Source: an uncultured Gammaproteobacteria bacterium
GTDB taxonomy: Bacteria > Pseudomonadota > Gammaproteobacteria > Pseudomonadales > Pseudohongiellaceae
Length of the DNA stretch: 64,000 nucleotides
Direction: 5' to 3'
Assembly (NCBI GenBank): GCA_913048385.1
Contig: CAJWVZ010000009.1
Coordinates: forward strand, 1 to 64,000
Shown: positions 43,806-51,879 of the stretch, in pieces
Layout of the letters: each line of letters starts with the position of its first letter
Numbering within the stretch: position 1 is the first letter of the stretch
The notes under the pieces: model-generated
Databases searched by the model: none
What the model was told of the DNA's origin: nothing
The model's input: the letters and a program-made list of their open reading frames with translations, nothing else
Made by a program: the position numbers and the translations under genes

Positions 43806-44456
43806 CTATAGCAATGAATTGGTGGGATTAAAGTAGTGAGTTCCGTTCGGACATTTTTGAATATGTTTTACTAATCTTTTGTAGTCAGGCTCACTATGTA
43901 TCGGATCAAATTCCTCGGTGTTGACGATAAGAAGAGAGCTATCTTTATAATAATGAAAAAATTCAGCATAAGCATTGTTTAGTTGATCTAAATAATCGAG
44001 CTCAATTAACTGTTCGGATGCAACGCCGCGTTCTTTGATTCGTTCTAGCAATGCCGCTGTAGAAGCTTGAAGATAGATTATTAAATTTGGTTTTGGTGCG
44101 TTAATAGTTAAATGATCGTAGATCTGGCCATAAAGGTTGTACTCGTCTTTGTCTAAATTCTGCTGTGCAAATAACATATCTTTATCAATTAAAAAGTCTG
44201 CTATTCTTAAGTTTTTAAAAAGATCATTCTGGTGCAGGGTTCGAATTTGCTCCACTCTTTGAAAGAGAAAAAACAATTGGGTTGCCAACGCATGCCGCTG
44301 CGGGTTTTCATAAAAACGATCTAGAAAGGGGTTTTTGTTCGGTTCTTCCAGTAAAAGCTCATACTCGAAGGTTTCTGCAAGACGCTTGGCTAAGCTCGTT
44401 TTCCCTACGCCAATAGGTCCTTCAATTGCGATGTAGTAAGGCAGGTGTTCAGTCAT
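43806..44456 (-). CDS. Deoxynucleoside kinase (dAdo/dGuo kinase family)
   Basis: 216 residues. The P-loop is GPIGVGKTSLAKRL; FYENPQRHALATQLFFLFQR and an arginine-rich lid (LLERIKERG) follow, as in bacterial deoxyadenosine/deoxyguanosine kinases. It would salvage deoxynucleosides. The start overlaps the pcnB stop as ATGA, so it is coupled to pcnB. It sits where folK is expected in this gene order; nothing in it resembles the pyrophosphokinase. Confidence 0.92.
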   Translation of the reverse strand: MTEHLPYYIAIEGPIGVGKTSLAKRLAETFEYELLLEEPNKNPFLDRFYENPQRHALATQLFFLFQRVEQIRTLHQNDLFKNLRIADFLIDKDMLFAQQNLDKDEYNLYGQIYDHLTINAPKPNLIIYLQASTAALLERIKERGVASEQLIELDYLDQLNNAYAEFFHYYKDSSLLIVNTEEFDPIHSEPDYKRLVKHIQKCPNGTHYFNPTNSLL

Positions 44457-45811
44457 TGTACTTGTAATTTCTTAATTTTTTTCACTGTTTTCTTTTTATC
44501 ATATGAAGACTTTTTATTGTCAATCATTTGAGCTTGGGTCAGTTCATCGCTTATTTGAAACTGGGTCCACCACGTAGTTATCGATTTGAGTTTCTCTCCA
44601 CTTTGTTCACGAAGTAACAAGAAGTCGTAAGCGGCTCTAAATCTTTTGTTAGAAAAAATCATGCATATGTTACGCGGGCTAGCTCGTTCGAGTTGAGATT
44701 GTAACCTCCAGATTTCCTTTATAGCGATGGTGAAGCGCTTAGGGACGGCTGTATAAGACAGCTGGCGCTCGATAGCTATGTCAATTGAGCTTTGAAATAA
44801 TTGTTTTTTTGTAAGCTTGAGTTTTTTGTTAATTTCCATGTACATTTGAAATACTGGCCAAAGTAATGCGGCGAATAAAAAACCTGGTGTCACTGATTTT
44901 CCTTCTTCAAGTCTTAGATCAGTATTATGGAGTGCAAGGTCAAGCAAGCGGCTTGATTGCTCATTTTTTGTAAAGTCGGTTTCCATTGCAGACAGTGTGG
45001 GTTCGAATAAATATTGACCTATTTTATACTGTTTTAAACTTTCGAAGCTTTTTCTTGCGTGGCCGGTTGCTAATAATTTGATCGACTCATCGAATAATCG
45101 TGCGGTTGAGATTGACGCTAGCAAATAGGCAAGCCTATTGATCGGTTCAAGCGTCCTCCTTTCTATCTTGAAATTGAGCTTTGCGCTAAATCGCAAAGCT
45201 CGTAGCATTCTTACGGGGTCCTCTGTGTAGCGCTCTGTAGGGTCGCCGATTATTCTGATCGTTTTCTCTTGGATGTCTTGAATTCCTCCAGTAAAGTCAA
45301 GAATAACGAAATTCTCTAGGGTGTAGTAAAGAGAATTTACCGTGAAATCTCTTCTCTCGGCATCCTCGTCAATTTTTCCATAAACATTGTCACGTAATAT
45401 TAGACCCTTATTTGATTGAGCAGATTCAAGCCCTTTAATATTTTGTTGTCCTTTATCACCGACAACGTTCAAGTTATTGTGGGGACCGCGGAAAGTTGTC
45501 ACTTCAAATATCTCCCGACCAAATCGAACGTGGACGATTTTGAATCGCCTGCCGATTATGCGCGAGTTTCTAAAAACTTTTTTTATTTGCTCTGGCGTGG
45601 CGTCTGTTGCAATATCAAAATCTTTCGGTTGTTGCCCTAAAAGTAGGTCTCTAACTCCACCACCCACAAGGTATGAATCATATCCGGCTGCATTCAGGCC
45701 CCTAAGTACACGGAGGGCAGCATCTGATATATTTCGCCGCGAGACGTTGTGTTGGTCGCGTGAGATAACAACTGCCTTACTTACGGTTTTTTTATTTTGC
45801 TGTTCAGACAT
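44453..45811 (-). CDS. pcnB: Poly(A) polymerase I
   Basis: 452 residues. The nucleotidyltransferase head YLVGGGVRDLLLGQQPKDFD with the DxD metal site, RRDFTVNSLYY and the RNA-binding body match PcnB rather than the CCA-adding enzyme (long basic C-terminal tail with KKSSYDKKKTVKKIKK). It adds A-tails that speed RNA decay. It is the first protein gene after the CrcZ-like RNA on the same strand; transcription may read through from there. Confidence 0.95.
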   Translation of the reverse strand: MSEQQNKKTVSKAVVISRDQHNVSRRNISDAALRVLRGLNAAGYDSYLVGGGVRDLLLGQQPKDFDIATDATPEQIKKVFRNSRIIGRRFKIVHVRFGREIFEVTTFRGPHNNLNVVGDKGQQNIKGLESAQSNKGLILRDNVYGKIDEDAERRDFTVNSLYYTLENFVILDFTGGIQDIQEKTIRIIGDPTERYTEDPVRMLRALRFSAKLNFKIERRTLEPINRLAYLLASISTARLFDESIKLLATGHARKSFESLKQYKIGQYLFEPTLSAMETDFTKNEQSSRLLDLALHNTDLRLEEGKSVTPGFLFAALLWPVFQMYMEINKKLKLTKKQLFQSSIDIAIERQLSYTAVPKRFTIAIKEIWRLQSQLERASPRNICMIFSNKRFRAAYDFLLLREQSGEKLKSITTWWTQFQISDELTQAQMIDNKKSSYDKKKTVKKIKKLQVQ

Positions 45812-46017: not shown

Positions 46018-46195
46018 ACAAAATCTACCGAGGGCGATAACGCCCTCGAATTTGGCTAAATACGTATGGGTTCCAGATGTGCCCAAAGCCAAAAATCAGA
46101 CCTATAATTTTTGTGGATTTTTTTATTATTTAGACAAAAATGTAAAGAGACTGAGCACTAACCAAATTATTATTATTATTTATTGTTATTATTGG
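46018..46195 (-). ncRNA. CrcZ-like Hfq/Crc decoy small RNA (candidate)
   Basis: The 554-bp gap between cbrB and pcnB is where Pseudomonas encodes CrcZ. On the minus strand a sigma-54 promoter predicts a start at about 46195. The RNA would open with two blocks of AAN triplets (46164-46193: AAT-AAT-AAC-AAT-AA, then five AAT) bracketed by ACCAA and TTTGGT. A second A-rich block (AAATAATAAAAAA, 46118-46131) follows. AANAANAA is the known Hfq/Crc-binding motif. An 8-bp GC hairpin at 46029-46048 may end it, giving about 175 nt, shorter than P. aeruginosa CrcZ (about 400 nt). The exact 3' end is uncertain; it could also be a leader of pcnB mRNA. Confidence 0.62.
46029..46048 (-). terminator. GC-rich hairpin, possible terminator of the CrcZ-like RNA
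   Basis: On the minus strand CGAGGGCG pairs perfectly with CGCCCTCG around TTAT. The following GTAGATTTTGT is T-rich but not a clean run, so termination may be partial and let RNA polymerase reach pcnB. Confidence 0.5.
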
Positions 46196-46205
46196 TAACC
46201 TAGGC

Positions 46206-46221
46206 TGCATAATCTGCGCCA
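46206..46221 (-). promoter_or_regulatory. Sigma-54 promoter of the CrcZ-like RNA
   Basis: Minus strand TGGCGC-AGATT-ATGCA against the consensus TGGCAC-N5-TTGCA: two mismatches, and the invariant GG and GC are exactly 10 bases apart. It points away from cbrB, whose product is a sigma-54 activator, into the AAN-repeat tract. Confidence 0.72.
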
Positions 46222-46294
46222 ACTAAAATATATTCATAAATTTCAATTACTTAATCAGAAAATAAACACTTCGGTCTAATCGTACGAGAAAGAG

Positions 46295-46340
46295 TGTTAC
46301 CAAACTTCGCTAAAAAATGGGTATGCTAGTATCAGTAACA
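46295..46340. promoter_or_regulatory. Inverted repeat TGTTAC-N34-GTAACA, probable CbrB binding site
   Basis: Two perfect inverted half sites lie 75-135 bp upstream of the sigma-54 promoter, the usual place for an enhancer-binding protein. As I recall, CbrB of Pseudomonas recognises TGTTAC...GTAACA palindromes. Here the spacing N34 equals two 14-base gaps plus a 6-base middle element, i.e. half sites 40 bp centre to centre, about four helix turns. Confidence 0.6.
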
Positions 46341-46365
46341 TTTCGATTTAACAAAACGAACGTGC

Positions 46366-47730
46366 TCAAACCGTTATGTTTTTCTTTTTTGGCATACCAA
46401 GGCGTTGCCGTCGTTCCCATAGACATTTTCGACTGATTCCTAGTTTCTTAGCGAGCTGAGTTTCGTTCATTTTTCCCTCATGCTCCTTAACGAATCGTTG
46501 AAAATAATCCGAAAGCGACATTTCTTTGAGGTTCTGTGCGACAGTCTCTTCAGCATTGTCTGATGACTGGAGAACTTCTCCGATCTTCTTATTATCAAGC
46601 GCTAAAAATTCCTCATGTATTTCTATGCTTTCGGTGAGAACAACCGCTCTTTCAATTGAGTTTTCCAGCTCACGAACATTTCCCGGCCAGCTATAATTCT
46701 GGAGCGCCTTTTTAGCCTCCTTTGTAAAAGTCATCGAGTCTTTATTTAGTCTATCACAAGCCTTCTTCAGCTTGTCGGCAGCTAGCTTCAGGATATCACT
46801 TCCGCGCTCGCGCAGGGGAGGAATATTGATGGTCATTACGTTAATACGGTAGTATAAATCCTCGCGGAATTGGCCAGCGTTGACAAGTTTCTTTAAATCT
46901 CGATGAGTTGCAACAAGAAGGCGGACGTCTACCTGTTTTGAGTGAATCGAGCCTATCTTTCGTATTTCATTGTCTTGCAAAACGCGGAGCAGTCGAGCTT
47001 GTGCTTCAAGAGGAAGTTCACCTATTTCATCAAGAAAAAGAGTGCTGTTATCTGCTGCTTCGACCAAACCGGTGCGGCTGTTGACCGCTCCTGTGAATGC
47101 CCCTTTTTCATGGCCAAAAAGCTCTGATTCTATTAAGTTCTCCGGAATGGCTGCGCAATTAACTGAGATCATCTTGTGCTCGTTTCGGGCACTAAGCTCA
47201 TGTATCCCGCGGGCGACCAATTCTTTACCGGTGCCTGACTCACCGTTTATGAGAACAGTCGATGATGTGGAAGCGATCTTGTTGGCGCGCGCAAAAAGTT
47301 CAGTCATTCCATTGCTAGTGCCGATCATCCCCCGAATCGGCTGCATCGTAACGTTGCCCTCAGGTTTATCCGCTAAAGCATCGCTAAGGATTTTTCTCAC
47401 TGTTTCAAGAAGTTCACTATGGTCAAATGGTTTGGCGATATAGTCTGTCGCCCCAAGTTTCATCACGTCAATCGCTGACCGGATGCTGGAGTAGCTTGTC
47501 ATGATCAAAACGGGAGCCGGGATGGCTGTGATTAAGTCTGTACCCGGTGCGCCAGGCAGGCGTAGATCACTGATTACCATGTCAAAATCATCGATATCGT
47601 GAGTTTCTATGGCATTTTGGACGCTGCTCGCTTCGCTAACCTTGTAATTATGACGCTCGAGCAGGCGGCACAGCGAAGTTCGTATTACAGGCTCGTCCTC
47701 AACAACTAAAATATGATTACTTGGACGCAT
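46366..47730 (-). CDS. cbrB: Sigma-54-dependent response regulator CbrB
   Basis: 454 residues in NtrC layout. Receiver domain with phospho-Asp 55 (VISDLRLPG); AAA+ domain with GESGTGKE, the sigma-54 contact loop GAFTGA and ELPLEAQARLLRVLQ; C-terminal Fis-type helix-turn-helix (NETQLAKKLGISRKCLWERR). Gene order cbrX-cbrA-cbrB-pcnB identifies it as CbrB, which in Pseudomonas controls carbon/nitrogen balance and the crcZ RNA. It follows cbrA by 34 bp. Confidence 0.9.
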   Translation of the reverse strand: MRPSNHILVVEDEPVIRTSLCRLLERHNYKVSEASSVQNAIETHDIDDFDMVISDLRLPGAPGTDLITAIPAPVLIMTSYSSIRSAIDVMKLGATDYIAKPFDHSELLETVRKILSDALADKPEGNVTMQPIRGMIGTSNGMTELFARANKIASTSSTVLINGESGTGKELVARGIHELSARNEHKMISVNCAAIPENLIESELFGHEKGAFTGAVNSRTGLVEAADNSTLFLDEIGELPLEAQARLLRVLQDNEIRKIGSIHSKQVDVRLLVATHRDLKKLVNAGQFREDLYYRINVMTINIPPLRERGSDILKLAADKLKKACDRLNKDSMTFTKEAKKALQNYSWPGNVRELENSIERAVVLTESIEIHEEFLALDNKKIGEVLQSSDNAEETVAQNLKEMSLSDYFQRFVKEHEGKMNETQLAKKLGISRKCLWERRQRLGMPKKKNITV

Positions 47731-47764: not shown

Positions 47765-50689
47765 TTAGTATCTGGGGAAACTAAGTGTTACTTGTGTCCC
47801 TTTGCTACCTTTTCCGGTCGGACTCATTATATCAATATTGCCATTTAAATCCTTTACAATACTATAAACAAGCGATAATCCCAGACCAGTGCCTTCCCCA
47901 GGTTCCTTTGTTGTGAAGAATGGGTCGAAAACTCGGTTTTGTAAATGATCAGGAATTCCGGAGCCTTCATCCGTTATTGTGATCTTCACAGTATTTCCTT
48001 CGGCGCTTGTTCGAGTAATAACCTTATCTCCCTTCTGGCTGGCGTCTCTCGCGTTGTTAATCAAATTTACAAAAATTTGTAACAACCGCTGGGAATCACC
48101 TAAGATTTCTGCCTTAGGGTCGGTTTCGAAAATATAGTCAATGTCTGTGCTTTTTTTATCAAGCGAAATAAGTGTTTTCGTATCCGCTATACAGTCGCTA
48201 ACGGCTATCTTTTGCTTTGAATAAAGTTTTTGGTTTGTCCCTGTGTGTGCGAAGTTGACAAGTGATTGGAGTATCTTAGATGTTCGGTTTGTTTGAGCAA
48301 TAATTTCGCCTGACAATTCTTGTAATTCTTCGCTTTTAAATTCATCGCGAATAGTTTGAGCAAGGCATGCGATTCCAGTTATGGGATTGCCGATCTCGTG
48401 CGCCACCCCAGCCGCAAGCCGACCAATAGAGGCGAGTCTTTGGCTGTGCGCGAGCCCGGCCTCAAGATTTTCGGTGTCTGTCAAATCTTCTACTAAAATA
48501 ATTAAGCCGTCGGTGCTTGAGTTGGAATCCGGATCTATTTCTTTTTCGATCATTGCCTTGTGAAGTTTGACTGTCTTTCTGACATTTTTGAGAGCGAAGC
48601 TTCTCTTATCAGTCTGATTAATATTATTTTCAGAGAAGTCTTCCAAAATACCTTGCCATGGTTCAGGCAGATTAATTGTCTGCGAACCAATAATTTGCGC
48701 GGACTTGATTCCTGTTAAATTTTCTAGCTCTCTATTCCACATTACTATCTCGTTATTTGGTCCCAGCGAGCAAATACCAATCGGTAAGTTGAATAAGATG
48801 TGTCGGTGGTATCGCCTAAGATTGTCTAAATCAGCAGCTACGCCAGATAGATTGCCTCGATAAGCCTCTATACCGCTTTCTATAACATTAAGATCTGTTC
48901 CAATATTTTTAGAAACTATCTCATACGGTAAAGAGGACTCAATAATACCACGGCCCACTTTAGGACCCAGTAATTCCGACAAGTTGACCTCCAGCCGACC
49001 ACGAAGGAGACGCATAGCATAAGGGCGCTGGTCCCCCTCAGTAAAGTTTAGTTCCCTGAGGGCATGTTTGACTTCGCGTCTTGCGGTCTTTAAACCCAAG
49101 GGTGCCTCTAAATTTTTGATGAATTCACCTACCGACTTTGCAACAAGCTCACCTTGGTGTGGTCTTCTTAAGTTGTCCAGAGAGCAAATATTAGCGGTGT
49201 TGAACTCTTCTTCATCCGAGGGGAAAAGAAGCGAAACTATCGCAAATACTGCGACATTTACCGCAAGAGATAATGCCGTCGCCAATCTCCAGTTGATGAT
49301 AGACTGCTCTGTTATTAACCTCCAATTGATGAGGGATTCTTGAGCGAAGTCGGTATAAAACAGGTAGAGGATCAAAAGAATTGAGCTCGCAATAATCCCT
49401 GCTATGTAGCCTCTTTTATTCCCTGGTGGCCAATACAATATCGCGAGCACACCGGGAAGAAATTGCAGGCAGGTAATAAAAGCCATCGCGCCAATTGAGC
49501 CTATGGCAACAAGGTCAGAAGGAAGGTAATGTAGCGCAAAACCGGCCCAGATCAGCGCGGATATTAAAATACGACGACGCCACATTAACCATTTGTAGAT
49601 ATTTTGCTTCGGAGACGGTTGGCGCAGGGGCAGAATTATATGATTTAGACACATGTTGGAGAGGGCGAGTGTTATAACAATAATCAGACCGCTCGCTGCA
49701 GAGAGACCACCCATGTAACCTAAAAGGCTCAGTAAGGGCCTCCCGAAGGAATCACCAATAATTACAGGGTAATATTCAACCGGAACTGTTGAGCCACTTT
49801 TAAGGCCCGCCCAAAGTATTGGCAAGACCGGCAAACTTATTAAGAAAAAATATAAGGGCAGGCCCCAGCTTGCGAACGACAAGGCGCGACGGCCATTGTT
49901 TTCGGTGAAAGTGGTATAGAACATATGGGGCATGGTTATTGAGGCGGCAAAGAAGACTACTATAAATATTTGGGACTGGCTAAAATTGGTCGAATTCTTC
50001 TGCGTGAGTGTTGACATTGGTTGCAACTCAACCCACGCGCCCATGGACTCGAAACCACCAAAACCACCATAAATGGCGAAACCGCCGACGATTAAAAACG
50101 CAATAAGCTTACTTAAGGATTCGAATGCGATCGCCATAACTAAGCCGTCATGTTGTTCGCGATTTTTTTCTCTCGAGGTTCCAAATAAGACAGCGAACAA
50201 GGTTATCAAAGCACAAAAACCAATTGCGATGCTATCGTGAGACGAAGCAGTTGTTAGGACGTCAGCTGTGTCGGCGACCACGCGAATCTGCAGTGCGATG
50301 AGAGCTATCGATCCTACAAGGATAACCGAAGTTGTTAATGTTCCGGCGAACGGTGACCGGTATCGAAAAGCAATAAGATCTGCGAGTGAGCTCAACTGAT
50401 AGGTTCGAGTTAAATCAAGAATTGGTTGTAAGAGGAGTGGAGAAAGCAAAAACGCCAGAGAAATTCCAATTGCGCTGGAAACGAAGCCATACCCAGATCG
50501 TAGGGCTAGTCCGATCGAGTTAAAGTAAAACCAGCCACTAGCGAAAACACCCATTGAAAGAACATAAACCAAAGGATGTCGGACAATTTTTTGGGGAATC
50601 CACCCACGATCGGTGATGAATGCAATTCCGAAAAGAATCGCTAAGTAGGCACTCCCAAAGACAAAAAGAGTGGTGAGGTCAAAATCCAT
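47765..50689 (-). CDS. cbrA: Transporter-fused sensor histidine kinase CbrA
   Basis: 974 residues. The first about 480 residues form a sodium:solute symporter (SLC5) domain with some 13 helices. A linker and a PAS-like part follow (LFNLPIGICSLGPNNEIVMW near 630). Then come the HisKA domain with phospho-His near 764 (GVAHEIGNPITG) and the ATPase domain (NLINNARDAS, DEGSGIPD, GTGLGLSLVYSI). Length and architecture equal Pseudomonas CbrA (about 980). The transporter part can carry histidine there; the ligand here is unknown. Confidence 0.93.
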   Translation of the reverse strand: MDFDLTTLFVFGSAYLAILFGIAFITDRGWIPQKIVRHPLVYVLSMGVFASGWFYFNSIGLALRSGYGFVSSAIGISLAFLLSPLLLQPILDLTRTYQLSSLADLIAFRYRSPFAGTLTTSVILVGSIALIALQIRVVADTADVLTTASSHDSIAIGFCALITLFAVLFGTSREKNREQHDGLVMAIAFESLSKLIAFLIVGGFAIYGGFGGFESMGAWVELQPMSTLTQKNSTNFSQSQIFIVVFFAASITMPHMFYTTFTENNGRRALSFASWGLPLYFFLISLPVLPILWAGLKSGSTVPVEYYPVIIGDSFGRPLLSLLGYMGGLSAASGLIIVITLALSNMCLNHIILPLRQPSPKQNIYKWLMWRRRILISALIWAGFALHYLPSDLVAIGSIGAMAFITCLQFLPGVLAILYWPPGNKRGYIAGIIASSILLILYLFYTDFAQESLINWRLITEQSIINWRLATALSLAVNVAVFAIVSLLFPSDEEEFNTANICSLDNLRRPHQGELVAKSVGEFIKNLEAPLGLKTARREVKHALRELNFTEGDQRPYAMRLLRGRLEVNLSELLGPKVGRGIIESSLPYEIVSKNIGTDLNVIESGIEAYRGNLSGVAADLDNLRRYHRHILFNLPIGICSLGPNNEIVMWNRELENLTGIKSAQIIGSQTINLPEPWQGILEDFSENNINQTDKRSFALKNVRKTVKLHKAMIEKEIDPDSNSSTDGLIILVEDLTDTENLEAGLAHSQRLASIGRLAAGVAHEIGNPITGIACLAQTIRDEFKSEELQELSGEIIAQTNRTSKILQSLVNFAHTGTNQKLYSKQKIAVSDCIADTKTLISLDKKSTDIDYIFETDPKAEILGDSQRLLQIFVNLINNARDASQKGDKVITRTSAEGNTVKITITDEGSGIPDHLQNRVFDPFFTTKEPGEGTGLGLSLVYSIVKDLNGNIDIMSPTGKGSKGTQVTLSFPRY

Positions 50690-50928: not shown

Positions 50929-51879
50929 TCAGTAAAGAACGGAGTCGAACACTATACTAGCTAACTTTGGCACTGACTGTAACTCCCAATGTTCGATCGC
51001 CCAATTCAGAAGGCTATTTGGCGATCGTGAAAATTGCCGTTCAGGAGGCCTTTGACCGAGCAGCAGCAGTGCACGAAATAATAAGGGAAAAGCGTCTTCG
51101 GTATCAATAGCGCGAGCAAAAGCTTGTTTACTCAATTTCGTTCCATTTGTGTCTGTCACGATGGGGATATGCGCATATGTGGGTTGGGCTAATCCTAGCA
51201 CTGTTTGTAAGTATCGTTGTTTAGGCGTCGAGCTGAGCAGGTCGGTTCCACGAACAATGTTAGTAACGCCTTGCCATGCATCGTCAATGACAACAGCAAG
51301 CTGATAGGCGATCATTCCGTCTTTGCGGCGAATGATAAAATCTCCTCCACTTTCACTTAGCTGAGAACTAAAAGGGCCAAGGATAGCGTCTTCAAACCCA
51401 ACCTTTTTTAAGTCGGTTCGAATTCGGATTGAGGTGCTGTGTTGTTTCTTGATTGGGTATTGTAACTCGCGCGCGCTTAACCCATTTGACCGGCACTTTC
51501 CGCTGTATCCGCCTTTCATGGTTTTGACATCCCGTCGAGAACAGGAGCAATGAAAGCATAATCCCTCACTTGCTAATGTCATAAGGGCCGTGTCATATGC
51601 GTCGATTCTTTTACTCTGAAAAAGCACCTCGTCGTCCCATGTAAGGCCCAAGCTCTCAAGTTGTTGAATAATTTTTTTGGCAGCGCCTGCTGGCTCTCTG
51701 GGAGGATCTAAATCTTCAATGCGAAGGAGCCACAAGCCATTGTTCGCTTTCGCGTCTAAGTAACTGGCCAATGCGGATACCAGTGATCCAAAGTGAAGAG
51801 GCCCGCTGGGCGATGGGGCAAAGCGGCCTACGTATTTTGGGGTCCTTTGGGCTGTGAACGGTTGGTCGTTGGACATCAA
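50929..51879 (-). CDS. gluQ: Glutamyl-Q tRNA(Asp) synthetase
   Basis: 316 residues. It is a short glutamyl-tRNA-synthetase-like enzyme lacking the anticodon domain. HIGH region: GRFAPSPSGPLHFGSLVSAL; zinc ligands in CFHCSCSRRDVK and GKCRSN; KMSKS-like loop GTKLSKQAFA. It attaches Glu to queuosine of tRNA(Asp). It follows dksA by 3 bp, as in most gammaproteobacteria. Confidence 0.95.
   Translation of the reverse strand: MMSNDQPFTAQRTPKYVGRFAPSPSGPLHFGSLVSALASYLDAKANNGLWLLRIEDLDPPREPAGAAKKIIQQLESLGLTWDDEVLFQSKRIDAYDTALMTLASEGLCFHCSCSRRDVKTMKGGYSGKCRSNGLSARELQYPIKKQHSTSIRIRTDLKKVGFEDAILGPFSSQLSESGGDFIIRRKDGMIAYQLAVVIDDAWQGVTNIVRGTDLLSSTPKQRYLQTVLGLAQPTYAHIPIVTDTNGTKLSKQAFARAIDTEDAFPLLFRALLLLGQRPPERQFSRSPNSLLNWAIEHWELQSVPKLASIVFDSVLY

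Follow-up and report, generated by a model that had tools for sequence, protein, structure and literature searches.

Does the gap between cbrB and pcnB in an uncultured bacterium of the Pseudohongiellaceae encode an RNA of the CrcZ type and, if so, by what route would that RNA act? CrcZ (RF01675) is an sRNA of Pseudomonas and Azotobacter, the gene for which lies between cbrB and pcnB. A sequence-only reading of the window (the whole stretch of DNA analysed here, 64,000 nucleotides in length) had placed a decoy RNA of this kind in the gap, marked by a TGTTAC/GTAACA repeat, a sigma-54 promoter, a start at about 46195, two AAN tracts and a hairpin; all of these elements are present on the minus strand (Table 1). 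Our analysis favours, with a probability of about 0.68, a CrcZ-type RNA gene, the product of which would function as a CbrB/sigma-54-controlled Hfq decoy acting without Crc. The gene order, the promoter geometry, the conservation of the locus and the presence of hfq, rpoN and cbrAB in a genome in which crc was undetected are the sequence-level grounds for this reading, from which we infer transcription, binding of CbrB, IHF and Hfq, titration and relief of targets.

Promoter region and predicted RNA in the cbrB–pcnB gap

Orthologues of CbrA and CbrB are encoded at approximately full length in the order gluQ–cbrA–cbrB; they share 48% and 57% identity with CbrA and CbrB of P. aeruginosa PA7 over residues 3–974 and 6–451, respectively. 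Pfam gave no call for a transporter-type (SSF) domain at 1e-5. The cbrB–pcnB gap is 554 nt in length and the RNA locus lies on the same strand as both genes; beyond pcnB, the minus strand carries genes for a deoxynucleoside kinase, panB and panC. The gap has only short ORFs on the minus strand: one of 30 aa covers the AAN tract, one of 38 aa lies upstream, and those of 69, 54 and 45 aa follow downstream. The genome from which the window comes (G000; 2.52 Mb) also has rpoN (C9:66685-68184) and hfq, the Sm core of whose product is nearly identical to that of E. coli-type Hfq.

Table 1. Genes and predicted elements at the cbrB–pcnB locus, in window coordinates.
Feature	Coordinates	Strand	Remarks
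gluQ	50929-51879	-	Upstream of cbrA
cbrA, sensor kinase	47765..50689	-	HisKA and HATPase domains
cbrB, response regulator, sigma-54 activator	46366..47730	-	Domain matches
CbrB-type subsite F, TGTTAC	46335..46340	-	119 nt before TGGC
CbrB-type subsite R, GTAACA	46295..46300	-	79 nt before TGGC
IHF-like site, TAAGTAATTGAAA	46241..46253	-	1 mismatch to YAANNNNTTGATW, which we take to be the IHF consensus; 32 nt before TGGC
Sigma-54 promoter, TGGCGCAGATTATGC	46207..46221	-	GG-N10-GC (TGGC-N8-TGC); predicted +1 at about 46195
Predicted CrcZ-type RNA, about 170-177 nt	46020..46196	-	Ends inferred from promoter and terminator
5′ AAN tract, AATAATAACAATAAATAATAATAATAAT, 28 nt	46166..46193	-	Putative Hfq distal-face site
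Second AAN tract, AATAATAAAAAAAT	46117..46130	-	
Terminator-like hairpin, tail TAGATTTTGT	46028..46049	-	No other such site in the gap; mean of 0.3 in shuffles
pcnB, poly(A) polymerase	44453..45811	-	Downstream boundary of the gap; TIGR01942, 481 bits, above cut-off

The TGTTAC/GTAACA pair had been read as an inverted repeat. The pair itself is present (the two hexamers are separated by 34 nt; TGTTAC-N28-40-GTAACA has one match in 64 kb against 0.02 expected, and 2 of 100 shuffles reach one); by position and spacing, and by analogy with P. putida, the hexamers are better taken as the separate CbrB subsites F1 and R2 than as one palindromic operator. The crcZ promoter of P. putida has subsites F1, R1 and R2, 20–25 bp apart, and is IHF-dependent, as described in an excerpt of PMC6296734. 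In several other families that we analysed, F, R and R stand at about -122, -101 and -80; the window's group (the 37 genomes labelled with its genus) retains F and the last R, and the middle subsite (R1 of P. putida) was not evident in the window. An IHF-like site with at most one mismatch is found in the 75 nt upstream of 31 of 38 promoters, all families taken together, against 7.8 expected from base shuffles, and 23 of those 31 sites lie at -31 to -33. Only one site in the 64 kb combines a sigma-54 promoter with an AAN tract behind it (three overlapping matches; mean 0.01 and maximum 1 in 100 shuffles). The gap also has two sigma-70-like matches, no more than chance would give (1.7), and one of these overlaps with the predicted start. 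A sigma-54 promoter, CbrB subsites and an IHF site are together predicted for this locus.

The predicted RNA has two AAN/ARN tracts. Among the AA[C/G/T] runs of the 344 kb of genome surveyed, those at 46193 and 46180 account for two of the top three in length. AANAANAANAANAA alone is not rare (three in the window against 0.84 expected, with 6 of 100 shuffles reaching three); the weight of the argument rests on the combination of elements and on their conservation, not on AAN runs alone. The first 28 nt are unpaired in the predicted fold, which would leave 25 of the 28 nt of the 5′ AAN tract unpaired. A shorter form of the RNA with its AAN sites near the 5′ end, as had been proposed, is what the sequence predicts; these sites are fewer than in most relatives, and the second AAN tract is kept only partly in the nearest relative, G028. 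A consensus fold of the RNA of 22 relatives (alignment A2, 22 loci of the group) has two-sided changes in 0 of 11 pairs.

Conservation and spread of the promoter–tract module

Gaps behind CbrB were read in 50 loci overall, 32 of them in the group (two cut by contig ends); the gaps of G005, G007, G015, G032 and G034, in which CbrB is absent or partial, were left out. AAN tracts are kept in 27 of the 32 group gaps, and the sigma-54 promoter together with a tract in 25. The expectation that both would persist in relatives with cbrB is borne out in these 25 loci and fails in the rest: the gap is closed in five loci with cbrB present (L034, L029, L028, L037 and L041, in G018, G021, G022, G030 and G033), leaving 13–86 nt from the cbrB stop to the first matched pcnB codon, and in two more (L025 and L024, in G001 and G026) the AAN tracts and one GTAACA are kept and the sigma-54 promoter is gone. 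Our promoter–tract model R1 (see below) found no copy elsewhere in the genomes of the five with a closed gap.

In L024, a TTTACT-N18-TATAAT match (10/12) stands just ahead of the tract, and L025 has the same letters; such matches are no more numerous in the region than chance would give (3 against 2.6). It is possible that these two loci have switched away from CbrB control. Loss of rpoN was rejected as a common cause of the promoter change: G026 has rpoN, and none was seen in G001 (75% complete). In a further genome (G013:C27:26972-28474), rpoN is apparently broken by several stops, although the promoter of the RNA and the AAN tracts show no sign of damage; the break may be a sequencing or assembly fault.

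Mean pairwise identity was computed over 25 rows of the group (L011 and L019, cut by contig ends, were left out). Subsite F lies at -117 to -121 in the 25 promoter-bearing group loci, with 0.88 identity in its columns, and the R site (GTAAC[AG]) at -77 to -81, with 0.99 identity against 0.44 for the spacer between R and the promoter; an IHF-like site lies near -32 in these loci. Identity reaches 0.96 for TGGC and 1.00 for TGC among rows with letters there; the first AAN block has 0.92, the +1 spacer only 0.37. This comparison upholds the proposed CrcZ-type RNA gene in its syntenic position, the CbrB-type sites, the IHF-like site and the sigma-54 promoter geometry all being conserved. The same pattern identified promoter and tract in 13 of 18 gaps read in other families; it was not seen in the gaps of G042, G037, G043, G045 and G053, and in G045 R1 matches further downstream. 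Two side-by-side copies of the promoter–AAN module occur near cbrB in L044 (G041), at offsets 124 and 515 after cbrB, as well as in G047 (C283:10764 and 11271) and G228 (C38:45351 and 45770); by analogy, they look as if they were crcZ/crcY paralogues in tandem.

The curated covariance model does not match this RNA: RF01675 gave no match in the window at its gathering score and none for the gap even at E ≤ 10, so that the candidate is not an ordinary CrcZ member by Rfam, and the prediction that an ordinary CrcZ search would be blind to it was correct. On the whole of the window's genome RF01675 also gave no match, but the controls were equally silent. It matched 5 of 11 loci tried, at 130–355 bits (L174 355, L170 309, L030 307, L147 296 and L187 130), four of the five being from named Pseudomonadaceae, and found nothing on L163, L203, L209, L214, L190 and L033. 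Model R1 covers promoter and tract over 67 positions and was built from 34 sequences (alignment A1, with 34 of the 38 promoters found; L035, L042, L044 and L050 were left out), including the Rfam-CrcZ locus L030 and none from named Pseudomonas. In named Pseudomonas loci it picks out the 5′ end of crcZ, and in two Gilvimarinus loci it matches within the gap. In a sample of 145 genomes from the order, which represent 87 genera, R1 matches 58 genomes and 39 genera at E ≤ 0.001 under strict filters; 50 of these genomes are new and 8 had contributed to the model. Twenty of the new matches, picked non-randomly across families, were fetched: 19 lie 103–752 nt behind cbrB on the same strand, and the 20th, at a contig start, lies just before pcnB. 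All three loci fetched from the sister genus g80 carry the module behind cbrB. The RNA thus appears to fall outside the Rfam model and yet to be of the same kind as CrcZ.

A conserved RNA at this place might instead be an Hfq-dependent base-pairing sRNA, in which the AAN tract merely docks Hfq and a structured 3′ part pairs with mRNAs. The fold of 46196-46020, stabler than 200 of 200 shuffles (z -3.1), and the conservation of the part after the first hairpin (identity 0.69 in the group) are in keeping with this; however, the AAN tract is the most conserved part of the RNA (the 0.92 given above), and the 3′ part in the window's pair (G000 and G028) is unlike that of the rest of the group, and we consider a base-pairing sRNA unlikely. 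A sigma-54-driven leader of pcnB, in place of a separate RNA, is less probable still. It would fit with pcnB lying on the same strand 384 nt behind the predicted start and with the T-poor tail of the hairpin, but that hairpin is terminator-like and its stem pairing is retained in G028, with one two-sided paired change (G-C to A-T) and one one-sided change (A-T to G-T); moreover, a strict terminator pattern is found in 4 of the 25 promoter-bearing group loci, with similar hairpins in others, L024 included. That the tract is an AT-rich product of chance, or a relic that has simply persisted, we find hardly credible: although the gap is A+T-rich, AAN runs alone are not rare and the RNA has been lost in part of the group, the combination, conservation and placement of the elements are far above chance, and the comparative data contradict such an origin.

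Crc and the ExoA-type nuclease

The sequence-only reading had concluded that this organism has the same carbon catabolite switch as Pseudomonas, and had proposed a search of the genome for hfq and crc. Of the two genes, hfq is present and crc was not found in the genome (98.9% complete), which leaves that conclusion unsupported as regards the Hfq–Crc pair. The single Exo_endo_phos gene of the genome, the N-terminus of which is cut by a contig end, lies at a locus other than the usual crc site; it was rejected as crc, its product scoring 260 bits to Neisseria ExoA (2jc5) against 214 to P. aeruginosa Crc (4jg3). Because it is the genome's only gene of this kind and its catalytic residues are intact, DNA repair explains this ExoA-type nuclease.

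The seven catalytic-site letters compared are kept in all 33 nuclease rows aligned for the group, which come from 31 of its 37 genomes; one of the 33, L104, is a second nuclease of another type. The nucleases of G005 and G010 are fragments at contig ends; no nuclease match was obtained in G019, G021, G034 and G036. Sixteen rows from 16 other families deviate at at least three of the seven letters and form one clade with P. aeruginosa Crc (100/99), of which ExoA is the nearest relative; for this tree the nuclease rows of the group were thinned and nine divergent rows of XthA type removed, and alignment A3 holds 13 of the 16 Crc rows (L089, L097 and L103 were left out). All 16 Crc genes adjoin pyrE, with rph also in the fetched stretch for 13. 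A Crc profile applied to the group returned only the nuclease genes already known and the contig-end fragments of G005 and G010. No crc lies between rph and pyrE in 16 of the 17 group pyrE loci fetched, rph being directly beside pyrE (the 17th is cut), and the rph–pyrE site of the window's own genome, with a gap of 39 nt, is likewise without crc. A check was made of the labels given to pyrE, rph, moaB and the septation protein gene; the label peptidyl-prolyl isomerase is a reading of the sequence.

The position of ExoA as nearest relative of Crc lends some plausibility to a full Hfq–Crc switch in which an ExoA-type nuclease moonlights as Crc. The KRR patch, which contacts RNA in Crc, is present in 10 of the 33 group nuclease rows, and in G057 (L119, 1988-2761) the place of crc elsewhere, between rph and pyrE, is taken by an ExoA that carries KRKRR and retains its catalytic residues. 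According to an excerpt of PMC6422490, R140 of P. aeruginosa Crc is needed for repression and R140E abolishes function; the window's ExoA has Gly at the position aligned with R140 and Asp-Gly-Arg in place of the patch, and for this organism a moonlighting nuclease seems to us improbable. The 10 KRR-bearing group nucleases might conceivably moonlight as Crc, and the ExoA of G057 at the crc locus possibly represents a pre-Crc state. Where the residue preceding the catalytic Asp is Ala, the ExoA rows of the group have a lysine-rich patch (KRRE, KSKRE or similar); where it is Gly, they do not, a division which possibly reflects a split of function.

Proposed action, age and relation to known systems

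An Hfq-only decoy is the simplest reading of the locus, because the promoter logic is the same, AAN tracts and Hfq are present, and no Crc was detected. When preferred carbon is short, active CbrB would occupy the TGTTAC/GTAACA subsites, IHF would bend the DNA, and sigma-54 polymerase would initiate near 46195. The resulting RNA, of about 175 nt, would expose a largely unpaired 5′ AAN tract and a second AAN tract; these would bind the distal face of Hfq, which would then be titrated off A-rich mRNA sites so that targets are relieved, and the titration would proceed without Crc. For P. aeruginosa, excerpts of two sources describe CrcZ as binding and sequestering Hfq via A-rich stretches, thereby relieving Hfq repression, and Crc as a protein that binds no RNA alone and assists Hfq (PMC4063720, PMC3662782). 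A look for AAN runs at the predicted translation starts (277 in 344 kb of the window's genome) showed no enrichment: AANAANAANAA occurs 0 times and AANAANAA 17 times, against 12.6 by column shuffling (maximum 22). ARN4 occurs 18 times at these starts, where the maximum over 200 column shuffles was 17, an excess which may come from Shine-Dalgarno sequences.

Outside the group, G052 and G057 also combine the RNA with no detected Crc; there the RNA is recognised from the gap sequence, as R1 matches only weakly (E 0.0066 and 0.0016, respectively) and below the threshold of the order-wide survey. In G052 the rph–pyrE site is empty and the only nuclease is catalytically intact; G038 has the RNA and no homologue, in a genome 75% complete. 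A quick RpoB tree (with no row for G044 and G053) places G052, G057 and G038 deep and, with weak support, the window's group among the Crc-bearing families. When the 15 Crc-bearing families were constrained to a clade without the window's group, the likelihood was 4.2 higher (p-AU 0.64). With such a clade unrejected and deep lineages in which Crc was undetected, the RNA may therefore predate Crc. We tentatively propose, at somewhat less than even odds for the whole, that CrcZ-type RNAs and CbrAB predate Crc in an ancestral circuit running from CbrAB through the RNA to Hfq, and that Crc arose later, once, from the ExoA-type AP endonuclease gene between rph and pyrE and joined an existing Hfq decoy circuit, of which the window's group would be a living Crc-free form. 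A Crc-free Hfq decoy is perhaps, then, the ancestral state; alternatively, Crc may have been lost later in the window's group.

CbrAB is called exclusive to Pseudomonads in an excerpt of PMC6296734, and a 2022 review, in the portion cited, describes CbrAB and its synteny with crcZ as unique to the Pseudomonadaceae (PMC8871633). In the present analysis, by contrast, a predicted CbrAB–RNA module occurs in many families of the order; in the open-licence literature, no CrcZ outside the Pseudomonadaceae or without crc was among the matches listed, and nothing was found on CrcZ in Marinobacter. A large group that keeps the RNA without detected Crc constitutes a natural test of RNA action via Hfq alone, and the lineage with a catalytically intact ExoA in the place of crc allows the descent of Crc from a DNA-repair enzyme to be tested, such that why Crc was added becomes an experimental question.

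Several known RNAs offer comparison. The RsmY/RsmZ and CsrB decoys are alike in that repeated sites titrate a translational repressor (excerpt of PMC4063720), and differ in the protein, RsmA/CsrA, and in the motif. The Pseudomonadaceae paralogues CrcY and CrcX share CbrB/sigma-54 control (crcY) and the decoy logic, as outlined in the cited part of PMC8871633; they differ in that the window's genome has one copy, at the cbrB locus. The sRNA99 of Acinetobacter baumannii is Hfq-associated, has AAN motifs and is CrcZ-like according to its authors in the excerpt available (PMC12802169), and is compared with the present RNA on these features. CrcZ itself, at 407 nt with six A-rich stretches (excerpt of PMC4063720), is longer than the roughly 175 nt predicted here. 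The window's RNA further differs from it in having no Rfam match, no evident middle subsite and no detected Crc, and resembles it in place, strand, CbrB-type subsites, IHF-like site, sigma-54 promoter, AAN tracts and an encoded Hfq.
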